Source: Halorussus gelatinilyticus
GTDB lineage: Archaea > Halobacteriota > Halobacteria > Halobacteriales > Haladaptataceae
Assembly (NCBI RefSeq): GCF_023238445.1
Contig: NZ_CP096658.1
Coordinates: 2,418,001 to 2,482,000 of the forward strand
Reading direction: 5' to 3'
Length of the DNA stretch: 64,000 nucleotides
The position numbers and the translations under genes were made by a program. Shown here piece by piece: positions 4,151 through 43,724 of the stretch (positions within the stretch are counted from its first letter, which is position 1; the number at the start of each line of letters is the position of its first letter). A model generated the notes under the pieces. It was not told where the DNA came from. It ran no database searches and worked only from the letters and a program-made list of their open reading frames with translations.

Positions 4151-4453
4151 ATGGCCATGAAATCAATCCGTCGCGGGCTCTGGGACGGCGAAGTCGGCAA
4201 GGACGCCCGCGGCAGGTTCTCGTGTCGCATCTGTCGCGTGTCGCTGACGCCCTCCGAAGCGCCGACCGGCGACTCGGCAGCGTCCGGTGAGTCGCCGGAC
4301 GCTGCCGAGTCGCCAGCGATGGACGGCCCCGGTGTAGCCGATTCCGCGGCGACCGACGAACCGGTGGACGGCGAGGAGACGATTCGGTCGTGCCCGGAGT
4401 GCGGCCGGTCGTGGAGAACGACCGCGCCGCGCTGGCGGACGACCGGCGGGTGA
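4151..4453 (+). CDS. HVO_0758-type small zinc-finger protein with expanded linker
   Basis: A 100-residue protein beginning MAMKSIRRGLWDGEVGKD, the hallmark N-terminus of the haloarchaeal HVO_0758 family of zinc-binding microproteins, followed by CRIC (about residues 25-28) and CPEC (about 81-84), which together can bind one zinc ion. The usual family member is near 55-60 residues; here a Ser/Asp/Ala/Pro-rich linker of about 45 residues separates the two knuckles. That linker is encoded by an almost uninterrupted inverted repeat (see separate feature). ATG at 4157 is an equally good start. Function is unknown; family members have been linked to biofilm and swarming in Haloferax. Confidence 0.75.
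   Translation: MAMKSIRRGLWDGEVGKDARGRFSCRICRVSLTPSEAPTGDSAASGESPDAAESPAMDGPGVADSAATDEPVDGEETIRSCPECGRSWRTTAPRWRTTGG
4268..4314. repeat. 20-bp perfect inverted repeat inside a coding linker
   Basis: Bases 4268-4287 and 4295-4314 are exact reverse complements, separated by 7 bases. The repeat encodes the GDSAASGESPDAAESPA linker of the zinc-finger protein. The mRNA or single-stranded DNA could form a 20-bp GC-rich hairpin. Confidence 0.95.
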
Positions 4454-42678: not shown

Positions 42679-43413
42679 ATGAAGAACGTCGCCATCGCCG
42701 ACGTCGACCCCACCGAGTTCGGCGACGACGCGGCGGTCCGCGAGGGCGCGGACCGCCTCGGCGCTACCGACCTCGCGGTCAACCACTACCGAATCCCGCC
42801 CGGCGAGGGGTTCCCGAGCGGTCTCCACGCCCACGGCGACCAAGAAGAGGTTTTCGTCGTCCTCGACGGCACGGCGACCTTCGAGCGCCTCGGCCCGGAG
42901 CGCGAGGCGGCCGACGAAATCGCGGTCGAAGCGGGCGAGGTCGTCCGATTCGCGCCCGGCGAGTACCAGTCGGGGCGCAACGACGGCGACGAACTCCTCG
43001 TGGCGCTCGCGCTCGGGGCACCGCCCGACAGCGAGGACGTGCGCGTCCCGCTCGACTGCCCGGAGTGCGGCCACGGCTATCTGCATCCCGAGGCAGGCGG
43101 AGAGAGCGAGGCGAACGGGGGAAGCGAGACGGACGAGGAGGCAGGAGCGGCCGACGGAGAGACGGGCGAGACGGGCGTGACCCTCGACTGTCCGGCCTGC
43201 GGCGCGGCGAACGTCCCGCGGGGGTGTCCCGACTGCGGCGCGGAGATGCGGGTCGCGCTCGCCGGGTCCGACGGCGCGCCGTCGGACCCGGCGAGCGCAG
43301 GGACGGGGGATGGAACCGAGACGGCGACCGAGAGCGAGACCGGCGTCTCCGCCCGGACCGTCGTCGTCTGCACGGAGTGCGGCGGCGAGGCTCGAAGCCC
43401 GTTCGAGACGTGA
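42679..43413 (+). CDS. Cupin protein with multiple zinc ribbons
   Basis: A 244-residue protein. Residues 20-115 form a cupin (HYRIPPGEGFPSGLHAHGDQEEVFVVLDG with His ligands, and a second strand motif RFAPGEYQSGRN). Then three zinc knuckle pairs: CPECG (about 130), CPACG/CPDCG and CTECG near the end. The linker between the ribbons is Gly/Glu/Ser/Thr-rich and contains a long perfect palindrome in the DNA. Cupin plus zinc ribbon suggests a metal-sensing or sugar-binding regulator, but no DNA-binding domain is seen. ATG at 42679. Confidence 0.78.
   Translation: MKNVAIADVDPTEFGDDAAVREGADRLGATDLAVNHYRIPPGEGFPSGLHAHGDQEEVFVVLDGTATFERLGPEREAADEIAVEAGEVVRFAPGEYQSGRNDGDELLVALALGAPPDSEDVRVPLDCPECGHGYLHPEAGGESEANGGSETDEEAGAADGETGETGVTLDCPACGAANVPRGCPDCGAEMRVALAGSDGAPSDPASAGTGDGTETATESETGVSARTVVVCTECGGEARSPFET
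43255..43298. repeat. 44-bp perfect palindrome inside a coding linker
   Basis: Bases 43255-43276 are exactly the reverse complement of 43277-43298, with no spacer. It encodes the ALAGSDGAPSDPASA linker of the cupin protein. Perfect palindromes of this length are unstable in most genomes. Confidence 0.95.
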
Positions 43414-43698: not shown

Positions 43699-43724
43699 CT
43701 CGCCGACGCCGCGGCGTCGGCGAG
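43699..43724. repeat. 26-bp perfect palindrome, intergenic
   Basis: CTCGCCGACGCCG followed at once by its reverse complement, lying between the stop of uspA and the promoter of the small membrane-protein gene. It may serve as a terminator-like hairpin for uspA or as an operator. Confidence 0.85.

Follow-up and report, generated by a model that had tools for sequence, protein, structure and literature searches.

A 44-bp perfect palindrome in a Halorussus protein linker, probably formed by copying of one arm onto the other

A perfect palindrome of 44 bp was identified within a coding sequence of a Halorussus chromosome (a haloarchaeon of the Haladaptataceae), at positions 43255-43298 of the stretch of 64,000 nucleotides analysed here (referred to as the window). 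It probably arose through copying of one arm onto the other by template switching (quasi-palindrome correction), a process which seems prominent in the lineages of this Halorussus (the focal genome) and of H. pelagicus (G009), and which needs no function of the palindrome. A self-complementarity scan of the window gave arms of 22 nt which are 100% complementary, with a spacer of 0 nt, in exact agreement with the preliminary description of a coding palindrome free of spacer and mismatch. Pairing ends at the arm edges, where C at 43254 and A at 43299 are unpaired. Base composition predicts approximately 5e-8 such palindromes for 64 kb and 3e-6 for 3.67 Mb; the palindrome is real and far beyond chance. 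No further match to its sequence was found in the window with up to 3 mismatches allowed. All analyses were based on assembled sequences, and genes were predicted with an in-house codon-usage script rather than taken from curated annotation.

Table 1. Coordinates of the palindrome arms, the host gene and its expanded linker in the window
Feature	Position	Strand	Basis
Host gene, 244-aa cupin protein with C-terminal cysteine-pair (zinc-ribbon-like) repeats	42679..43413	+	ORF, Pfam
Left arm	43255..43276	+	self-complementarity scan of window
Right arm	43277..43298	+	self-complementarity scan of window
Expanded linker before last zinc ribbon, residues 193-226	43255..43356	+	ortholog alignment; short in G014, G009, G006

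The palindrome lies in frame, beginning at codon position 1 of residue 193 and spanning 14 codons plus two bases (A-L-A-G-S-D-G-A-P-S-D-P-A-S-A). A Pfam search of the host protein (see Table 1) returned Cupin_2 alone (E 6.8e-10), while NCBIfam gave a rubrerythrin-like stretch below cut-off. Its earlier placement in a linker between zinc ribbons is fair, because cysteine pairs flank the palindrome on both sides (CPECG, CPACG...CPDCG, CTECG). Between the first two zinc ribbons, too, the linker (43083-43162) is expanded in the window (GGESEANGGSETDEEAGAADGETGETG) relative to G014, G009 and others.

The linker was compared among orthologs (22 loci given, of which 16 were parsed and G024, G027, G025, G020, G023 and G027b were left out). 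In three near relatives of the focal genome, namely G014, H. pelagicus and H. limi (G006), the linker that follows MRVAL is short. It is long in the focal genome, in halophilic archaeon LT46 (G013), in G016 and in G002, and these four can be aligned codon by codon from MRV(A/T)L onward. The LT46 linker consists of CGCTCGGCGAGTCCGACGCCG followed by its exact reverse complement, a perfect 21+21 palindrome whose letters differ from those of the focal genome. At the aligned site 22/22 positions are paired in the focal genome and 21/22 in LT46, with an imperfect repeat at the same place in G016 (14/22) and G002 (13/22); over the 44 bases the focal genome shares 36 with LT46, 36 with G016 and 35 with G002. 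The quasi-palindrome of G016 and G002 has C-C at pair 8-37 and G-G at pair 20-25. At these two pairs the focal genome has the left arm of G016 and G002 and a changed right arm (C-G, G-C), while LT46 has their right arm and a changed left arm (G-C, C-G). The changed letters at positions 25 (43279) and 37 (43291) of the focal genome, which are unlike those of LT46, G016 and G002, complement its own left arm, just as those at positions 8 and 20 of LT46 turn one arm into the complement of the other. A third compensated pair, 11-34, is G-C in the focal genome and A-T in LT46. All six differences between the two within the paired 42 bases fall at codon positions 1 or 2 and change the amino acid, while the third codon positions of the palindrome are identical at 14/14, versus 0.71 over the whole gene (0.71^14, approximately 0.009).

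Sliding the partner positions by 1-3 columns as a control cut the paired cells from 79.5% to 25-38%, while in a column-shuffle control, which is weak with four sequences, 80/500 shuffles reached three compensated pairs. With the polarity of the arm changes taken as the majority among the four long-linker sequences, the shared ancestor would have been a quasi-palindrome from which the focal genome and LT46 lost the C-C and G-G mismatches by changes in opposite arms. If instead a perfect ancestor had decayed in G016 and G002 after right-arm changes in the LT46 clade, the left arm of LT46 would still have to have been re-matched. A fully G016-like start would require two-way copying in both the focal genome and LT46 (positions 9-11 and 26 besides 8, 20, 25 and 37).

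It is proposed that a Ser/Asp/Ala/Gly/Pro linker written in GC-rich codons would produce an imperfect inverted repeat, on which a strand could fold back, so that one arm would serve the polymerase as template when the other is made and the mismatches would all be removed together. The gene would survive, given that amino-acid changes are tolerated in the linker and its length stays the same. The right arm would have been rewritten from the left in the focal lineage and the left arm from the right in LT46, with the protein sequence rewritten as a by-product, and a strong copying process in the focal genome and H. pelagicus would leave many unrelated perfect coding palindromes. We infer template switching in replication or repair synthesis as the copying agent and, likewise, the order of events and the absence of a function.

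In 760 kb of the focal genome 34 coding palindromes (arms of at least 12, spacer 0-10) were counted, where a codon-order shuffle gave an expectation of 2.8 and a synonymous shuffle 4.4; under the same thresholds 28 intergenic palindromes were found, compared to 0.3 expected. The preliminary description had called the retention of the palindrome notable on the premise that long perfect palindromes usually get lost. This genome does not bear the premise out, and its wealth of perfect coding palindromes, together with the one in the LT46 ortholog, gives no support to an exceptional retention. The coding census, with the same arm and spacer limits, was extended to five genomes over 400 syntenic kb each, around the locus or its counterpart. 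The counts were 20 for the focal genome, 19 for H. pelagicus, 2 for H. limi, 4 for G014 and 3 for LT46, compared to synonymous-shuffle means of 2.3, 2.3, 1.6, 2.6 and 1.4, respectively (Poisson tails 8e-13 for the focal genome, 7e-12 for H. pelagicus and 0.17-0.48 for the other three). The excess is confined to two of the five species and is therefore not inherent to GC-rich haloarchaeal codons.

The excess peaks at perfect repeats. Repeats with 0, 1 and 2 mismatches numbered 8, 11 and 84 in the focal genome, against a null of 0.5, 6.4 and 60 (16x, 1.7x and 1.4x), and 7, 18 and 68 in H. pelagicus, against 0.2, 5.0 and 47 (28x, 3.6x and 1.5x), the one-mismatch class also being somewhat raised in the latter. 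H. limi (0, 6 and 55) and G014 (0, 3 and 69) were near the null and had no perfect repeats; LT46 had 2, 3 and 55 against 0.1, 4.2 and 48, and one of its two perfect repeats is presumably the ortholog of the palindrome described here. The ratio of perfect to two-mismatch repeats was 15:152 in the focal genome and H. pelagicus together, compared to 2:179 in the other three (Fisher P 7e-4). Along the genes of the focal genome the coding palindromes are spread evenly (9, 8, 9 and 8 per gene quarter).

When coding palindromes of the focal genome were compared with their G014 orthologs (10 gap-free of 14 spanned), 98 pairs were the same, 31 had changed on one side and 0 were compensated; the other palindromes are therefore not conserved structures, and the alignments suggest partly paired sequence that was perfected in particular lineages. 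At gap-free sites the orthologs are mostly partly paired where the focal genome or H. pelagicus is perfect. Repeated re-matching of the arms was seen at the 43255-43298 locus only, ortholog differences elsewhere being nearly all one-sided. Gains from relatives' quasi-palindromes were also counted, although these counts are few and come from overlapping placements. Among 13127 such placements chosen in H. limi, a gain of at least 3 was found for 19 in the focal genome versus 8 in G014, and 14/14 was reached by 5 and 0, respectively; with LT46 as reference, the focal genome had no coding gain at 13/14 or better (0, versus 2 and 2). One coding palindrome of 30 bases, with 14-bp arms and a spacer of 2 (G000:C1:2319204-2319233, or 79204-79233 of the focal 400-kb string), is identical in the focal genome and H. 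pelagicus, and its counterparts have 11, 8 and 8 of 14 pairs in H. limi, G014 and LT46; it may derive from shared ancestry, exchange or parallel correction.

Selection for an RNA or DNA structure, whereby the hairpin would function in mRNA stability, pausing, processing or protein binding and compensatory point mutations would be selected, is an unlikely alternative. It would account for the three compensated pairs between the orthologous palindromes of the focal genome and LT46, and the predicted mRNA hairpin is strong (a 20-bp stem of -47.9 kcal/mol for the palindrome alone, and a folding z of -3.08 for the 146 nt around it). However, the long linker is missing from G014, H. pelagicus and H. 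limi, the site is paired at just 13-14/22 in G016 and G002, and the other coding palindromes are neither concentrated in any part of the genes nor conserved as pairs. Single mismatches in the focal genome were G-U in 1 case and A-C in 1, equal numbers which are too few to weigh. As to the suggested effect on the mRNA, a hairpin is predicted, but there is no sign of a function, the other palindromes being evenly spread and their pairs unconserved.

Rickettsia palindromic elements, a repeated, decaying selfish family, likewise place palindromic DNA within open reading frames. That a small mobile palindromic element of this kind was inserted into this linker in two lineages is considered improbable. 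The short-linker relatives do resemble empty sites, and several palindromes of the genus partly resemble the LT46 sequence. However, there is no second copy of the 43255-43298 palindrome in the focal genome, whose coding palindromes are unrelated in sequence and, unlike the Rickettsia family, showed no repeated consensus; G016 and G002, moreover, align codon by codon with the focal genome, and similar palindromes encode a common peptide such as SDAAASD in genes that are unrelated, which composition explains. A family of related palindromes was considered and rejected on the same ground, since matches to the LT46 palindrome occur in 15/18 genomes and the coding ones lie in unrelated genes sharing peptides like ESDAAASDS; L067 and L069 initially resembled orthologs but are not orthologous. 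SDAAASD-like peptides were observed in differing genes of the genus (L067, L069, L070, L071, L079 and L089), where the codons form perfect palindromes with 14-16-bp arms. Separately, three intergenic palindromes (L060:10175-10210, L055:11580-11609 and L055:13973-14014) are of a shared type, GCGCTCGCG...GCGCGAGCGC, which is present in G014 too and is possibly a repeated REP-like element.

Little probability is also given to recombination, in which the focal lineage would have received the linker from a donor of the LT46 clade and the palindrome itself would be old. In a threonine synthase tree (17/18 genus genomes, G007 having no ortholog) the focal genome grouped with G014, H. limi and H. pelagicus (bootstrap 72-97 along the path), and G013, G016, G002, G003 and G011 formed the sister group with moderate support. 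The focal genome is the only member of its group with the long linker and is nested among short-linker species; therefore repeated losses, an insertion in the focal lineage or recombination with the LT46 clade is needed. The linker may have been deleted in the three short-linker relatives, and an insertion in the focal lineage is a conceivable alternative to losses. The identity of third codon positions with LT46 within the palindrome also favours a donor, but the sequence to the left is of the type shared by the focal genome, G014 and H. pelagicus up to the very edge of the palindrome, the two right-arm letters which perfect the focal palindrome are absent from LT46, G016 and G002, and the genome-wide excess is left unexplained. 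Such an exchange is in any case compatible with arm copying. A sequencing or assembly artefact, which the preliminary description had named as its refutation and which an excess in the focal genome and H. pelagicus alone might suggest, is very unlikely because the same linker holds a palindrome with different, compensating letters in the independent assembly of LT46, and because the frames stay open, the net difference in gapped comparisons of coding palindromes being a multiple of three in 17/20.

The genomes were also searched for candidate trans-acting factors. Loss of a hairpin nuclease as the cause was rejected, as Mre11 (NF041030) scored over cut-off in 18/18 genus genomes; it is followed by a frame of 889 aa, by position a putative Rad50, in 5/5 compared genomes, while the Rad50 hook model PF04423 was uninformative in the genus (4/18 genomes, 1 over cut-off). 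The Exonuclease VII large subunit was over cut-off in H. limi only (1/5), and RNase HII, MutS and RNase H were each found in 5/5 compared genomes. None of these searched genes (Mre11, PF04423, Exonuclease VII, RNase HII, MutS, RNase H) separates the focal genome and H. pelagicus from the others.

The open-access literature searched yielded no report of palindromes within coding sequences of haloarchaeal chromosomes. The closest likeness is with the mitochondria of Nematomorpha, reported to have perfect inverted repeats in translated genes but no corresponding surplus of imperfect ones, a 'perfect or nothing' pattern as seen here; these repeats are described as gained and lost, some with midpoints common to species, and repeat conversion is proposed, with template switching among the mechanisms (PMC6649704). 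The nematomorph repeats differ in being mitochondrial and up to 284 bp, with conserved residues encoded by both arms (PMC6649704), whereas those of Halorussus are up to 44 bp on an archaeal chromosome, the focal one lies in a variable linker, and two opposite-direction arm resolutions can be read from relatives. Template switching is reported to make a quasi-palindrome into a perfect or more perfect repeat in E. coli lacZ reporters (PMC7202029), and it is also credited with arm homogenisation and nonsynonymous changes among 39 genes of yeast (PMC8604942). Both resemble the present case in the step from imperfect to perfect repeat by arm copying and in the clustered, often nonsynonymous changes, but they concern observed events or recent branches (PMC7202029, PMC8604942), whereas the Halorussus events are deduced from a comparison of species and, unlike the E. 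coli and yeast cases, the excess is confined to two of five relatives. It has been argued that template-switch events give rise to hairpins with compensatory changes and are able to maintain them (PMC8794818). Palindromes are reported to be in excess in most prokaryotic phyla, though to a lesser degree in archaea, with coding ones varying among genera (PMC4060949). A coding excess of short palindromes (6-9 bp) is likewise attributed to template switching, but it is small and said to be weaker in archaea, while the Halorussus arms are 12-22 bp and the excess approximately ninefold.

Arm copying by template switching, a known mutational process which would be unusually prominent in the lineages of the focal genome and H. 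pelagicus, is considered the best explanation. At a single orthologous site on an archaeal chromosome the arms have changed in opposite directions, from which a mutational mechanism can be recognised in place of selection. The case suggests that compensatory base changes need no functional RNA in order to arise and that they can alter a protein linker. With counts that differ so sharply between relatives (20 and 19 versus 2, 4 and 3 per 400 kb), the question of how template switching is genetically controlled becomes accessible to comparative genomics and to Haloferax reporters. More tentatively, hairpin-templated copying might be hyperactive in some Halorussus lineages, creating and re-perfecting genic palindromes, with concerted arm evolution sweeping paired nonsynonymous changes through linkers and some replication or repair factor toggling the process between sister species.

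Intergenic palindromes were also noted. The sole other zero-spacer palindrome in the window with arms of at least 10 is a perfect one at 43699-43724 (13-bp arms, CTCGCCGACGCCG and its complement), approximately 400 bp downstream of the palindrome described here, and a scan of the matching neighbourhoods of H. limi, H. pelagicus, G014 and LT46 gave no counterpart to its sequence. An inverted repeat at 4268-4314 has 20-bp perfect arms and a 7-base spacer, and a perfect zero-spacer palindrome of 54 bp, with 27-bp arms, was found in G007 (L076:1496-1549).
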